Shown here piece after piece: positions 13,026-18,225 of a stretch of 25,183 nucleotides of DNA; within the stretch, counting starts at the first letter, position 1, and the number at the start of each line of letters is the position of its first letter. This DNA is from a virus. A model generated the notes under the pieces. That model was not told the origin of the DNA, did not search any database, and saw only the letters and a program-made list of their open reading frames with translations. The position numbers and the translations under genes are program-made. Where the stretch lies: positions 1 through 25,183 of the IMG/VR virus record IMGVR_UViG_3300020430_000085. One strand, written 5' to 3'.

Positions 13026-13631
13026 TCAATAGGTTGAAACAATCTTATCTGCAATACCATACTTAACTGCTTCTTTGGCACTTAACCAAACATCTTCAGC
13101 AGGTAATAGTATTTCTCTAATTTTCTTTTCGCTCAAACCTGTACACTTTTTATAATGTTCCATCATACGTGCTGTGCTCAATTCGAACTCTTTTACTCTT
13201 GCAAATAGTTCATGTTCTTTACCTACACTACCCCAACTGTATTGATGTGATAGTATTGATGTGTTTGGTGTAATTACCCTGCGACCTTTTGTACCACTCA
13301 TGAAAGTTAATAATCCACATGATGCAATCATGCCAAGTCCTACTGTCTTTACAGGAATTGCTGATCCTTTCATCGTATCTATTAATGCAAATGCTGAATG
13401 TACTTGTCCGCCCGGTGAATTAATCACCAAAGTTAATTCTTTTGGTCTTGATGAATCTGGCAATAAATTTTTTTCAATTATTGCTTGTATCACTGGTTTG
13501 GTTGTGTTACTGTCAAATCCGTCACTGAAATACATTATTCCAGCTTCCCACATCATCATACCTGGTTGTAATGGTTGTTGTGGTTTTTCAGGACCTGACT
13601 TTTTCTTGTTATCTTTATCTAAAGTAGCCAT
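13026..13631 (-). CDS. clpP: ClpP-family serine protease
   Basis: This 201-residue protein has the ClpP fold markers: 'LVINSPGGQVHSAFALID' (68-85) forming the oxyanion-hole region, catalytic S104 in 'GMIASCG', H129 in 'SILSHQYSWG' and D180 in 'AEDVWLSAKEA', followed by 'YGIADKI'. The triad is complete, so it is probably active. The first 25 residues are a polar Pro/Gln/Lys-rich extension. AGGAGAAACA precedes the ATG, starting in the stop codon of the primase gene. Phage ClpP-like proteins can be head-maturation proteases in other phage groups; here the position in the replication block rather than beside capsid genes argues for a different task, such as altering host proteolysis. Confidence 0.93.
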   Translation of the reverse strand: MATLDKDNKKKSGPEKPQQPLQPGMMMWEAGIMYFSDGFDSNTTKPVIQAIIEKNLLPDSSRPKELTLVINSPGGQVHSAFALIDTMKGSAIPVKTVGLGMIASCGLLTFMSGTKGRRVITPNTSILSHQYSWGSVGKEHELFARVKEFELSTARMMEHYKKCTGLSEKKIREILLPAEDVWLSAKEAVKYGIADKIVSTY

Positions 13632-13639
13632 TGTTTCTC

Positions 13640-14629
13640 CTACGCAATCTTTCTTAATACTTCTATTTTTGTTTTATTATTTACCCTACTGTCAATAATG
13701 CTTTTTACTGTGAACAACTGTCCATAGTGTTTTACTGCATCTGCACAGTCTTTGATATGATCTTGCCATGGCGGAAAACTTACTGACCAACCGTTTTCAA
13801 CTGCTTGATCAATCAATGTTGATCCTGCCGCATCTCTGTCTGGACATACAATTATTTCTCCATCAAATTCTTTTATCAAATCAATTTGCACTTGATTTAG
13901 TTTATTGTGTAGCACTGCTAGTCCATCAATACTTAATGCATCTAACACACCTTCTACTACAATCAAATATTTTCTTCGTTTACTTAACACATCCATGTTA
14001 TACATATAGTTTGGTTGTGAATTAGTAAAATACTTTGGCTTGTCTTTGTCATGATCAATTATTCTTGATGTATAACCAACTGTACTGCCATTGTAATAAA
14101 ATGGCACAATGAATCTTCTATTCAAATCTAAATATGTATCATTGCACCAATAAAAATCTCCAAAGTGATCTAATCCTCTATCAATAATATGTTTGTACAC
14201 CCATATAGCATCTTCCGGAGGTGTGTCTTGTTTTATTACTTCTATCAAAGGCTTTGATCCTTTTGGTAATTGAATTTCTCTCCAACTGATTTTAGGTTTT
14301 GGCTTTTCTTCTTGTTGTGGATTATTTTCTTTTTCACGTATAGCCAAAAGTTGTAATCTTCTTACTTCGTTATCAGGAACTCCAATACCACGTAATAAGC
14401 CAACTAGTTTTTTACCAAAAGTTCTACCTGGCTTATAACTTGTGCTGAAACCACAATTGAAACAATGATAAACCATTCCATCAACAAACCTAAATCCACC
14501 ACGCGATCGTGTATCTGGTCTTGATTGGCCATTGGTTGTACACATTGGACAATTTATTGTTGTCCACCCAGAAGGAGTCTTTTTCCTTTTACCAGGCATG
14601 TGTGTAATAATTGTATTTTGTAATTCCAT
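13640..14629 (-). CDS. 61: DNA primase, T4 gp61-like
   Basis: This enzyme makes RNA primers for lagging-strand synthesis with the gp41 helicase. With the ATG at 14629 it has 329 residues, near T4 gp61. A zinc-binding domain shows 'CPMC' at 27-30 and 'CFNC' at 56-59. The TOPRIM catalytic core shows 'VVEGVLDAL' with the conserved Glu near 226 and 'CPDRD' at about 262-266. The frame extends six codons further to a TTG, but the ATG is preferred: it lies exactly 6 nt from a promoter -10 box and no Shine-Dalgarno serves either start. The gene heads the block that continues with clpP, glutaredoxin, thyX and helicase. Confidence 0.94.
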   Translation of the reverse strand: MELQNTIITHMPGKRKKTPSGWTTINCPMCTTNGQSRPDTRSRGGFRFVDGMVYHCFNCGFSTSYKPGRTFGKKLVGLLRGIGVPDNEVRRLQLLAIREKENNPQQEEKPKPKISWREIQLPKGSKPLIEVIKQDTPPEDAIWVYKHIIDRGLDHFGDFYWCNDTYLDLNRRFIVPFYYNGSTVGYTSRIIDHDKDKPKYFTNSQPNYMYNMDVLSKRRKYLIVVEGVLDALSIDGLAVLHNKLNQVQIDLIKEFDGEIIVCPDRDAAGSTLIDQAVENGWSVSFPPWQDHIKDCADAVKHYGQLFTVKSIIDSRVNNKTKIEVLRKIA

Positions 14630-14648
14630 TGTTATATAATATAACAAT
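14628..14648. repeat. Perfect 21-bp palindrome over the primase start and -10 box (possible operator)
   Basis: ATTGTTATAT, a central A, and ATATAACAAT form two perfect 10-bp arms covering the start codon and the -10 element of the primase promoter. A dimeric repressor or activator could bind here, or the RNA end could fold over the start codon. AT-richness makes chance symmetry possible. Confidence 0.5.
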
Positions 14649-14664
14649 TTAGTTGAAAAGTCAA
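14636..14664 (-). promoter_or_regulatory. Sigma-70-like promoter for primase, leaderless geometry
   Basis: TTGACT (14659-14664), a 17-bp spacer and TATTAT (14636-14641) on the minus strand, with ATAACA before the ATG at 14629. The -35 directly follows the stop codon of the dehydrogenase gene, so a host-type promoter begins where a late unit ends. Confidence 0.7.
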
Positions 14665-15816
14665 TTAAATCTTGTAAGTATTATTTCCTGCTTTAACACC
14701 AGATAAGCCGTCTAACTTCATTTTAAACCTGTTTGGCTTACCTTTAATTGCTTGTCCTATTTCTGTACAAACATCTGCCGGTGAAATTCTGTGTTCGCTG
14801 GCCATGTCTAATATGTTAAGAGTTCTGTCATATATAGTTGTAATCATTTTAAAGGATTCTTGTTCATCTCTTGATTTTAAAATTACTCCCGCAGATCTAA
14901 AAACTCCGCCGGCGTTTGCAATAGTATCTGGAACATATAATATTTTATGATCAAGTAATTGTTGTTTAGCAATTGCAGAATCAACTATATCTAATTGGTT
15001 ATTAGCCGCTCCACAAATAACTTTACAGTTCATATCTGAAATTCTTGATATCCTAATATCATTACCCATTGCACAAGGAGAATATACATCAACTTCTTTT
15101 TTATGTATTTCATTGTGATTTACTATTTCAATTTTAAAAGGATATTGTTTTTGCAATTCATTAATATACTGTATTTTGTCTTCACTTTTATCTGCAACAA
15201 TTATACTAGCACCATCTTCTAAAATATAATTTGCTAATTGATATCCTACTTTTCCAATTCCTTTTATAGCAATTTTTAATCCTTCTAATGAATCTTTTCC
15301 TAACTTAAATTTTACACCTGCCTTCATTGCGTTGTAAACACCAAATGCTGTGCATGAACTTCCAATGTCTGGATCAGAATAAGTTGTTGTAAAATCTGTA
15401 TATCTTCTTAGTTGCTGTAACATATCAAAATTAAAACCAACATCAAGACCACCATAATAATCACCATTAAGATAATTTATAAGTTCTCCTAAATAAGGAT
15501 AAATTCTTTTTTCTTCTACCTGAAAAGCACCTATGTCTTTATGATAAGATTTTTGAATTGCTGTTTTTCCGCCACTTAACTTTATTCCTGCGACCATACA
15601 TTTTTCAGTCATTGCTTCTGCAAGTTTTTGCACATCTAGATAAGGTCTTTCATTATCTTTGTAATCAAAATATCTTATACCACCAAATGCTGGACCATTT
15701 TTTAAAGTATGAATTGCAATATAGGCACTGAAATTGCTTTCTTCATGATATCCATGAACCACTCTCTCAAAACCTTGTGTTTTGATTTCTTTAATATCCA
15801 TTGGCTGGATTGGCAT
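14665..15816 (-). CDS. Leu/Val/Glu/Phe-type amino-acid dehydrogenase
   Basis: This 383-residue protein has the architecture of leucine dehydrogenase, which interconverts branched-chain amino acids and their 2-oxo acids plus ammonia with NAD. The substrate domain has 'GPAFGGIR' (41-48), K72 in 'MTEKCMVAG', the catalytic lysine K84 in 'LSGGKTAI' and D125 in 'GLDVG'. The NAD domain has 'IKGIGKVG' (184-191) with acidic D209 in 'VADKS', favouring NAD over NADP. 'VPDTIANAGG' (295-304) closes the site. All catalytic residues are present. The gene starts 2 nt after the stop codon of a virion-type gene, with AGGAAT as ribosome binding site, and shares its late promoter. This is an unusual phage auxiliary metabolic gene; the exact substrate cannot be told. 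Confidence 0.93.
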   Translation of the reverse strand: MPIQPMDIKEIKTQGFERVVHGYHEESNFSAYIAIHTLKNGPAFGGIRYFDYKDNERPYLDVQKLAEAMTEKCMVAGIKLSGGKTAIQKSYHKDIGAFQVEEKRIYPYLGELINYLNGDYYGGLDVGFNFDMLQQLRRYTDFTTTYSDPDIGSSCTAFGVYNAMKAGVKFKLGKDSLEGLKIAIKGIGKVGYQLANYILEDGASIIVADKSEDKIQYINELQKQYPFKIEIVNHNEIHKKEVDVYSPCAMGNDIRISRISDMNCKVICGAANNQLDIVDSAIAKQQLLDHKILYVPDTIANAGGVFRSAGVILKSRDEQESFKMITTIYDRTLNILDMASEHRISPADVCTEIGQAIKGKPNRFKMKLDGLSGVKAGNNTYKI

Positions 15817-15817
15817 T

Positions 15818-16654
15818 TTAATTCCTAACTAGAATTTTAGTAATAGTTCCAACATCAGCTACTGCTGTCGGTAAGTAAATTATTCTAATCCATTTTGCCA
15901 TACTTGTAAAATTGTATGAAGCAATCGTTGTTGAATTAGTTAATGACACATAATCATTAGACTGTCCATCTAATTTAATATGAAACCATTGTGTGTGGTC
16001 TGTTGTATTTGCTGTACTTTCCATAGAACCTTCAACTATGAAGTCTCCATCAAATCCATTTGAATATAATGCAATAGTATGTTTTGCTGAAGTTAAATTT
16101 CTTTCACTTGCACCAGCGACTGCACTTGAATAATACCACGTTTCTCCAGTTGTTGCTTTACCTATATTTTGTTTAGTGAAATTTGGATTTGAACTTTCAA
16201 AAGTGATTTCTTCTGTTTTTCTTGGGTTAGAAGCAATACCTTCAACTACTTCTAATGTACCGTGTGCCGCTTCATTAAGGTCTGTAAACACCACTTGCTG
16301 TTCAGATGATGCGTTAGTAGTGTATAGTGAATAGTTGTAAAATGCACCAGCAACATCATCAATATCAGATGATGGTAAATTTAATTGTGCTAGTCCTTTG
16401 ACTGCATTTGATACTGTTAATGGTCTTGCAAGTATTGATTCGTTTGTGTTTGCATCTACTACGTTAAATGTTACAGTTAGATTAGTTAAATCAACTGCGT
16501 TTCTATCATTATCTTTTAACGCAAACTTCACAGTGTTATCAATACCTTGATACAATTTTATAGTTTTATCATACATTGTTGTACTACCTTGATTTGCACT
16601 TGTATTTACTATCACTGTATGAGTATCGTCATATACATATACCGTTACTGTCAT
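15818..16654 (-). CDS. Virion-type structural protein, BppU-like N-terminal part
   Basis: This 278-residue protein is rich in Thr, Asn, Ser and Val with beta-sandwich character. Residues about 27-120 ('IKLYQGIDNTVKFALKDNDR', then 'AVDLTNLTVTFNVVDA') resemble the BppU/baseplate-upper N-terminal domains found on phage appendage proteins. An internal ATG at codon 27 could be an alternative start, but the upstream one has AAGGAA and a late-promoter-like box at 16681. It is the first gene of a two-gene unit with the amino-acid dehydrogenase. Probably a minor virion or appendage protein. Confidence 0.6.
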   Translation of the reverse strand: MTVTVYVYDDTHTVIVNTSANQGSTTMYDKTIKLYQGIDNTVKFALKDNDRNAVDLTNLTVTFNVVDANTNESILARPLTVSNAVKGLAQLNLPSSDIDDVAGAFYNYSLYTTNASSEQQVVFTDLNEAAHGTLEVVEGIASNPRKTEEITFESSNPNFTKQNIGKATTGETWYYSSAVAGASERNLTSAKHTIALYSNGFDGDFIVEGSMESTANTTDHTQWFHIKLDGQSNDYVSLTNSTTIASYNFTSMAKWIRIIYLPTAVADVGTITKILVRN

Positions 16655-16680: not shown

Positions 16681-16688
16681 TATTTATG
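16681..16688 (-). promoter_or_regulatory. T4-type late promoter (CATAAATA variant)
   Basis: CATAAATA on the minus strand, one base from TATAAATA, 27 nt before the ATG at 16654, with AAGGAA between. It abuts the -35 of the divergent plus-strand promoter. Confidence 0.6.
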
Positions 16689-16735: not shown

Positions 16736-17107
16736 ATGGATTATAACGAATTAGCAGATAAATTTCCCTTTTTGTCGTGTGTAAAACATGGCACCAACGA
16801 ATATGTAGGCATTGTACAAAATCAAGATGATTTTGTAACCAGCATATATGTATATGATGATATCCCAACTGATCAACTAAAAGCAGATTTTTTAAGATTA
16901 GGTGATGTTTGGTGGTGGGAATCAAATAGAGTAATCCCTATTAATATATTTTTAGCGGGAGAATTTACTCAATATCAAAACTGGCTTAAAACATTTACTA
17001 CTAAAGATATTAAAATGATTTTTGGACCAACAACTAGTTTAGGTAATATAATAAGAAAACGTATTAAAAGACGTCAAATTCAATTAGTTAAAAAGACTGA
17101 CGATTAG
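16736..17107 (+). CDS. Conserved hypothetical protein on the plus strand
   Basis: This 123-residue protein has an aromatic-rich middle ('LGDVWWWESNRVIPINIF') and a basic C-terminal tail ('RKRIKRRQIQLVKK', about 106-119). I recall similar proteins in marine T4-like phages ending in the same 'KRIKRR-IQLV' pattern, function unknown. The ATG is the only start, as an in-frame stop lies two codons upstream. It is one of only two genes on the plus strand and converges with the DnaE-like gene; their 3' ends overlap by 20 bp, so each transcript carries antisense to the other unless termination is precise. Confidence 0.75.
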   Translation: MDYNELADKFPFLSCVKHGTNEYVGIVQNQDDFVTSIYVYDDIPTDQLKADFLRLGDVWWWESNRVIPINIFLAGEFTQYQNWLKTFTTKDIKMIFGPTTSLGNIIRKRIKRRQIQLVKKTDD

Positions 17108-17672
17108 ACATCAAATTCATTTGTACACAGATTGCTAAAGCATATCCAATAGCATGACTCTTTTTAAAATAATAACTATCATCATTTGGTTTTACCCAAA
17201 CATTTGATTCAATTTCTGGCCAAGTTGCATTAAGTAAACTTCTCTTTGCTGGACGTATCACTGCCAAAACTGCCGCTAATTGTTCAACCGACTTTGGCTT
17301 CAACTTGCTAACAATATCATAATGATTATGTATATGAAATAATTGTTCAACTATTTCTTTATGCTCTAATAACGACCAATCAGGTTCTTGATTAATTAAT
17401 TGTTGTAAATGTTTTTCATCTTTAACTTTTTCATAAACACCAACATTTAATATATCTAACTTAAAATAACCTCTATCTTCTGCTTGTTTGTAATCTATGT
17501 TTGCTGTATTTGTAAATGGATGAACAGGAATATCAGTAAAATAAACACCAGTGTTGTGTTTTTTTATTTCACCGTTTTGAATAATACTAGCAGGAATATG
17601 TTTTAACTTTTCTAGTAAAACATCTCTATCTTTTACATCAATATCAATATCTGTTTTTGCTATATTAGTCAT
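17088..17672 (-). CDS. Mini-protein with DNA polymerase III alpha (DnaE)-like palm/finger motifs
   Basis: Although only 194 residues long, this protein carries in order several patterns typical of the more than 1000-residue DnaE: 'TDIDIDVKDRD' (7-17), like the palm motif with paired catalytic Asp; 'GYFKLDILNVG' (68-78), like 'FDFLGL' with the third catalytic Asp (D73 here); 'VSKLKPKSVEQLAAVLAVIRPAK' (121-143), like the 'LKP...IA.L.RP' finger segment; and 'KKSHAIGYAL' (170-179), like 'KSHSAAYAL'. PHP, tau-binding and most finger regions are absent. The upstream TTG (17696) is rejected for the ATG at 17672, which overlaps the previous gene's stop by 8 bp. Whether it can polymerise or has been adapted to bind DNA is unknown. 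Confidence 0.65.
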   Translation of the reverse strand: MTNIAKTDIDIDVKDRDVLLEKLKHIPASIIQNGEIKKHNTGVYFTDIPVHPFTNTANIDYKQAEDRGYFKLDILNVGVYEKVKDEKHLQQLINQEPDWSLLEHKEIVEQLFHIHNHYDIVSKLKPKSVEQLAAVLAVIRPAKRSLLNATWPEIESNVWVKPNDDSYYFKKSHAIGYALAICVQMNLMSNRQSF

Positions 17673-18225
17673 TTGCTTTTTTAGGTTCTCCTGCAATTCC
17701 CCATTGGTTGTGTCTTGGATCTTGCATTTGTTTAATGTGTTCTTTTGAATAATTTAAATTTTCAATTGCTTCATATTCTGACAAAGGTGTTGACAAAGTA
17801 TTTTCTTCTATATGTTTCATTTGCTCATCTGTAAGGCCTGCGTTTGCGTATTCTTCATCTTTACTCATAGGAAATTTTAATTCCATTTGATCATCTTCTG
17901 GTGTATGGAAAGTTGTTGACATAGATGTTGTGTAGTCACCCATGGATAAACTACCACCACCATAAGTAACGTCAAAAGTATAATCATCGTCTTTTTCTAT
18001 TCCAACACCCCATGACGATTGTTGCAATTTTGATATTTCTTGATTTACAGAACTCATTCTGTTTTTCCAATCATCTAATTTTGTTCGTTGTCTTATTACT
18101 TCATCTTTATGTACTAAATGTACCAACGTTTTTAATTCTTCCCATTTTTCTTTTACAGTTTCATTATCACTACTAGTTGCCACCTTGGCTACTATTTCTG
18201 GAACACCATCAAAATCAAATGTCAT
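17665..18225 (-). CDS. Hypothetical protein in the replication block
   Basis: I do not recognise this 186-residue protein. The N-terminal 70 residues are helical and charged, with coiled-coil potential ('WEELKTLVHLVHKDEVIRQR'). The middle is Gly/Ser/Thr-rich and likely flexible, and the C-terminal 50 residues are polar and helical. The ATG shares its A with the stop of the zinc-finger gene (TAATG) and the end overlaps the DnaE-like gene, so it is translationally coupled on both sides and may act with these partners. Confidence 0.65.
   Translation of the reverse strand: MTFDFDGVPEIVAKVATSSDNETVKEKWEELKTLVHLVHKDEVIRQRTKLDDWKNRMSSVNQEISKLQQSSWGVGIEKDDDYTFDVTYGGGSLSMGDYTTSMSTTFHTPEDDQMELKFPMSKDEEYANAGLTDEQMKHIEENTLSTPLSEYEAIENLNYSKEHIKQMQDPRHNQWGIAGEPKKAND

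Follow-up and report, generated by a model that had tools for sequence, protein, structure and literature searches.

Metabolic genes carried by phages are usually interpreted as stolen from their hosts. The 25,183 nucleotides of IMG/VR virus record IMGVR_UViG_3300020430_000085 analysed here (the window) encode an amino acid dehydrogenase (DH) beside a virion-structural-type gene (virionP), and the locus raises the question of what such an enzyme might do in a phage, on which substrate it might act, and in which direction the gene has travelled. The features concerned are the following, in window coordinates:

13026..13631 (-): ClpP-like protease, a conserved neighbour (Pfam CLP_protease, 1.1e-32), in the same order in relatives
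13640..14629 (-): primase, a neighbour with its own promoter, outside the DH unit (phrog_47, 1.4e-33), in the same order in relatives
14638..14664 (-): sigma70-like primase promoter (TTGACT...TATATT), directly after the DH stop codon, conserved
14665..15816 (-): DH, ELFV-superfamily amino acid dehydrogenase of 383 aa, identified from Pfam, structure matches, an AlphaFold model and catalytic residues
15818..16654 (-): virionP, virion-structural-type gene upstream of DH (phrog_14467, 1.9e-17), most likely in the same unit
15823..15826 (-): AGGA, ribosome-binding-like sequence motif for DH within the final codons of virionP
16681..16688 (-): late-type promoter motif CATAAATA, 26 nt ahead of the virionP ATG

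The dehydrogenase and its catalytic residues

DH exceeds the curated cut-offs of both Pfam domains of the ELFV superfamily, ELFV_dehydrog (PF00208; 2.9e-17, 63.6 bits versus 23.4) and ELFV_dehydrog_N (PF02812; 2.3e-11, 44 bits versus 25.3), and possesses K72, K84, D125 and a GxGxxG motif at 186-191, making it a member of that superfamily. The solved structures nearest to it are leucine dehydrogenases (LeuDH), with about 30-35% identity. Fold matches to its AlphaFold model (pLDDT 87.3, pTM 0.87) rank LeuDH first, followed by tryptophan (TrpDH) and phenylalanine (PheDH) dehydrogenases, all ahead of any glutamate dehydrogenase (GDH). In alignment, K72, K84 and D125 correspond to K68, K80 and D115 of LeuDH, GIGKVG (186-191) to its dinucleotide/NAD loop, N272/N273 to N261/N262, and D209 to the NAD-selecting Asp, which is Glu in one of two phage clades (clade B, below). 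The original prediction of a complete NAD-type amino acid dehydrogenase, based on K72, K84, D125, GIGKVG and D209, is thus borne out, every one of these having its LeuDH counterpart. Residues K72, K84, D125, G186, G188, V190 and N272/N273 do not vary across 21 aligned phage, marine bacterial and LeuDH-like proteins. With dN/dS values of 0.07-0.27 for within-clade pairs, DH is under purifying selection, and judged by its sequence it is an enzyme.

A conserved gene of marine jumbo phages

The nearest relatives of the UvsX protein of the window belong to the jumbo myophages Atu_ph07, Phosso and Vibrio phage 2.275.O, and a related contig (G001) has 328,149 bases; on these grounds the virus, which the original prediction treated as T4-like, is a jumbo myophage rather than a typical T4-like phage. 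Searching with DH and virionP recovered related marine contigs in two clades, whose DH proteins are 73-89% (clade A) and 53-56% (clade B) identical to that of the window. The gene after virionP is DH throughout, in the window as well as in all 11 further contigs that cross the junction, and primase and then the ClpP-like protease lie downstream wherever contigs extend further. Between clades A and B, DH (about 55%) and virionP (about 56%) evolve much faster than primase (84%), ClpP (83%) and UvsW (87-89%). DH is a conserved fixture of this marine jumbo-phage lineage. It is present neither at the virionP junction nor elsewhere in the records of PA5oct and Atu_ph07, where primase, or a gene occupying its place, comes next after the virion gene, so the marine lineage is taken to have gained DH between the virion gene and primase. 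Lying within a phage genome and missing from cultured relatives, DH qualifies as a phage auxiliary metabolic gene.

The expectation that amino acid dehydrogenases are not standard in T4-like phages agrees with a search of 50,697 phage records, in which no match exceeded 32% identity. A literature search gave no relevant prior report of phage leucine or amino acid dehydrogenases, and leucine dehydrogenase is not mentioned in the main text of two papers on ocean and jumbo-phage auxiliary metabolic genes (PMC11360552, PMC13037316). The record of Pseudomonas phage Y12 (OQ572413.1, L009) was rejected as kin; it probably contains host DNA, because its protein is letter-for-letter the LeuDH of P. aeruginosa (PDB 7vid) over 316 aa. 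Gut, Acinetobacter and Staphylococcus phage records with ELFV matches were likewise set aside, being of LeuDH/GDH type with 26-32% identity.

Several other genes of these phages were observed. On the opposite strand between virionP and a polymerase-like gene, the window has a 123-aa open reading frame (ORF) without a Pfam match (16736-17107, +), and PA5oct, Atu_ph07 and Phosso each have an opposite-strand ORF in the equivalent place. The short DNA-polymerase-like gene (17088-17696, -; phrog_11778) is kept in relatives, and a DnaE-like gene is annotated at its place in Phosso. The ribonucleotide reductase gene (244-2024) matches Pelagibacter phage Mosig EXVC030M with 74% DNA identity, a value that no other part of the window approaches and that may reflect recent exchange or a shared host. 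G001 (loci L036-L052) encodes a SufS-like Aminotransferase V protein (125-1333), SufB (65019-66485), an ABC ATPase resembling SufC (70847-71530) and a SufBD-core protein (71523-72095), which together would give a jumbo phage a nearly complete set for Fe-S assembly; many radical-SAM/SPASM-like ORFs, one of which was tested, accompany these genes. It also has a full-length elongation factor G gene (G001:266007-268076; L049:6007-8076) with the late-type motif TATAAATA upstream, and close after it a cold-shock gene preceded by the same motif.

Probable placement in a late transcription unit

DH was predicted to share the message of a virion-type protein, with its start 2 nt after the stop codon of that gene. 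The gap is in fact a single base (15817), which, together with the AGGA in the last codons of virionP, is best explained by a late message that carries DH as its second gene. The PA5oct homologue of virionP is listed as detected by ESI-MS/MS. Ahead of virionP, nine loci from the two clades have the same string ATTTAGCAACATAAATATA as the window, and the T4-type late promoter sequence NATAAATA lies upstream of the unit. Promoter motifs were identified as consensus matches, and by this measure NATAAATA precedes 36 ORFs of the 328-kb relative (1.9 expected). Several of ten such ORFs scanned encode portal, tail tube, baseplate wedge, spanin and other virion families, for which reason the motif is considered to behave as a T4-type late promoter. 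Downstream, the primase promoter begins at the DH stop codon in every phage locus compared, and its sigma70-like motif class precedes 20 ORFs (1.0 expected). Because an invariant late motif stands before virionP and primase has a separate promoter after DH, DH is most likely part of the late unit of virionP, as had been proposed, and would be expressed late in the infected cell. A predicted promoter inside virionP (15882-15910) was discarded: promoter-like sites there are not above shuffles (46 versus 52), and its -10 element, judged by eye, is not retained in L018.

Substrate pocket

The leucine/valine identity assigned in the original prediction fared less well. LeuDH specificity is set by L40, A113, V291 and V294; positions 113 and 291 are altered in PheDH, and positions 40 and 294 are decisive in GDH (PMC2723916). 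DH has F44, G123, V305 and S308 at these positions, constant across clades A and B and the bacterial copies described below, so that three of the four differ (L40F, A113G, V294S) and V305 retains V291. Tyr121 of DH is at the position of LeuDH I111, a pocket position equivalent to PheDH W114 (PMC8766677), and L124 replaces LeuDH E114. The Lys of GDH position K89, which serves the gamma-carboxylate, is absent from DH, Phe44 being found there as the match of LeuDH position 40. TrpDH also has Gly at the position of LeuDH A113, as presumably does PheDH.

Phylogeny against amino acid dehydrogenases, which had been suggested as a check, placed the phage and bacterial proteins on a single long branch (100/100), outside all 33 LeuDH/TrpDH-like sequences sampled and not within any LeuDH clade. 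DH reaches no NCBIfam equivalog, the top score being that of the TrpDH ScyB (209.3 bits versus a cut-off of 600). Together, F44/G123/S308, the separate long-branch clade and the equivalog scores leave the leucine/valine label without support. The altered pocket (F44, Y121, G123, L124, V305, S308), as read from the alignment, would favour a substrate unlike plain leucine, probably one whose side chain is larger or in part polar.

Chromosomal copies in marine bacteria

The closest non-phage relatives of DH (69%) are found on chromosomes of a marine gammaproteobacterial order with genomes of about 1 Mb. Three contigs with a 68-69% copy were recovered from a species-genome collection and a fourth copy from a search of the same order (4 of 20 genomes in total, the copies coming from metagenome-assembled genomes); no additional copy turned up among 398 genomes drawn from across the phylum. 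The genomes of this order that were examined are 0.7-1.1 Mb in size, and the contigs have 29% G+C. Bacterial DH is located between a puuD-like gene and argD and argF, with tsaE-like and amidase-like genes further out. Mis-binned phage DNA was rejected as an explanation since the flanks resemble sohB, amidase, tsaE, puuD, argD, argF and phoU, names that were assigned by eye except for Pfam matches of the puuD-like gene and argD.

Four genomes (G014, G007, G008 and G006) possess the empty site, with argD directly after puuD. Where DH is inserted, it is flanked on each side by a duplication of about 90 bp that is single-copy in the empty sites, made up of the 3' end of puuD, a sequence resembling a promoter (seven of eight copies match the type TTGAAT-17-TAAAAT) and a terminator-like hairpin. 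Alignments of upstream with downstream repeats score 53-73, compared with shuffled maxima of 32-44. The terminator repeat is absent from the window and all phage loci compared. The bacterial protein stops at the start of the repeat and lacks the C-terminal 11-12 residues of the phage protein, a tail with pLDDT <50 in the AlphaFold model. Bacterial copies have dN/dS of 0.07-0.13 among themselves. Since those of G002 and G012 are 93% identical in DH but 71% in argD, DH appears also to have been transferred or replaced between bacteria.

Direction of transfer and proposed role

The best trees nest the bacteria in clade A next to the window type (92-93 bootstrap), and six of eight quartet-informative sites join the two. 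The AU test rejects neither placement of the bacteria outside the phages (p 0.246) nor monophyly of clade A (p 0.159), and polarised site 302, where NAGG is common to bacteria and outgroups, opposes a phage origin. Transfer from phage to bacterium is nevertheless probable, favoured by the greater diversity of phage DH (down to 53-56% identity, versus 79% and up in bacteria), the patchy bacterial spread, the existence of empty sites in the chromosomes and the truncation of the protein in bacteria. The reverse course, in which marine gammaproteobacteria or an unsampled cellular lineage were the source, the phage clade captured DH and the bacterial copies represent the parent line, would accommodate the AU result and NAGG at site 302; it is rather unlikely, because it fits poorly with copies in a minority of genomes of the order, at an otherwise empty site with a flanking duplication, less diverse and shorter than the phage proteins, and within clade A in the best tree. 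It is an even chance that a phage enzyme with a substrate range unlike those of characterised Leu/Phe/Trp/Glu dehydrogenases was passed to streamlined ocean bacteria and kept there behind a duplicated argD promoter region.

The explanation held with good confidence is that DH is an active NAD-dependent L-amino acid dehydrogenase from a branch of the Leu/Phe/Trp dehydrogenases that is divergent and carried by phages, gained by an ancestor of marine jumbo myophages, read late, and later copied to bacteria. The fold and residues of DH, its conservation and synteny, the enrichment of the motifs, the empty sites and the purifying selection are computed results; activity, substrate, the directions of reaction and of transfer, and late expression in the cell are what we infer. 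The ancestor would have acquired DH between the virion gene and primase, where it may be read late from the virionP message with its translation coupled to that of virionP. K84 and D125 would act on an amino acid gripped by K72 and the Asn pair, and the hydride would pass to NAD bound on the Rossmann domain. The reaction of the family is NAD-linked deamination or its reverse. LeuDH-type enzymes bind ammonium weakly and ammonium is scarce in seawater, so that deamination would be the likelier direction in such hosts. Oxidative deamination of amino acids derived from host protein may thus supply NADH, ammonium and oxo acid when virion synthesis peaks. A marine gammaproteobacterial lineage with a small genome would later have taken window-type DH into its chromosome and retained it under selection.

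A true leucine/valine dehydrogenase supplying branched-chain amino acid synthesis late in infection would be in keeping with the nearest solved sequences and folds and with the retained V305, but it is unlikely in view of the constant changes at the other three specificity positions, the separate clade, scores below every equivalog cut-off, and the weak ammonium binding of LeuDH, which disfavours synthesis in seawater hosts. Far less probable still is a DH without catalysis, repurposed as a virion or assembly part. Its sharing of a unit with a virion gene could be read in that way, and loss of activity is possible in the lineage: the 328-kb relative has a second ELFV-like protein beside its SufS-like gene (L021; G001:2121-3179) in which the catalytic Lys and Asp are gone, likely a non-catalytic paralogue. 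DH, however, retains every catalytic and NAD-loop residue, and its close copy is maintained under purifying selection in bacterial chromosomes that contain no virion.

Under the preferred explanation of an active, late-read phage enzyme, DH is an enzyme open to testing, its pocket remodelled, and a late-type amino acid dehydrogenase of giant ocean phages whose insertion sites, phage and bacterial alike, can be compared with empty ones. The data lean towards marine bacteria with small genomes having received an enzyme from a phage; if this is true, the phage is the source and not the thief of a metabolic gene. The conserved phage lineage and the close bacterial copy go beyond what reading the window without tools had revealed, and the copy, which makes DH of more interest than a lone auxiliary gene, is also a lead on the host of these giant ocean phages.

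Comparison with known systems

Leucine dehydrogenase (EC 1.4.1.9; PDB 6acf, 3vpx, 1leh, 7vid) resembles DH in fold, catalytic Lys/Lys/Asp, Asn pair, GxGxxG loop and the acidic residue for NAD, and differs by its modest identity, by L40F, A113G, E114L and V294S, and by the position of DH in a clade of its own. Tryptophan dehydrogenase ScyB (5b37) is like DH in the Gly at the LeuDH A113 position and in its top NCBIfam score, whereas both ScyB and phenylalanine dehydrogenase (1c1d) are only 28-29% identical to DH, which has V305 and not a bigger residue at position 291. Glutamate dehydrogenase belongs to the same superfamily, and DH has a Ser at what we take to be the position of GDH S380, but identity is about 20% and Phe44 replaces the Lys of K89. 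The viral fold match that ranks first for the DH model is a Pandoravirus GDH.

The jumbo phages PA5oct, Atu_ph07 and Phosso share with the window the order of virion gene and primase; PA5oct has nothing between them, and Phosso has a different ORF of 1650 nt in place of DH. Like other auxiliary metabolic genes of marine phages, DH is a host-type metabolic enzyme carried by a phage; unlike them, it is an amino acid dehydrogenase, placed in a putative late unit at a fixed position.
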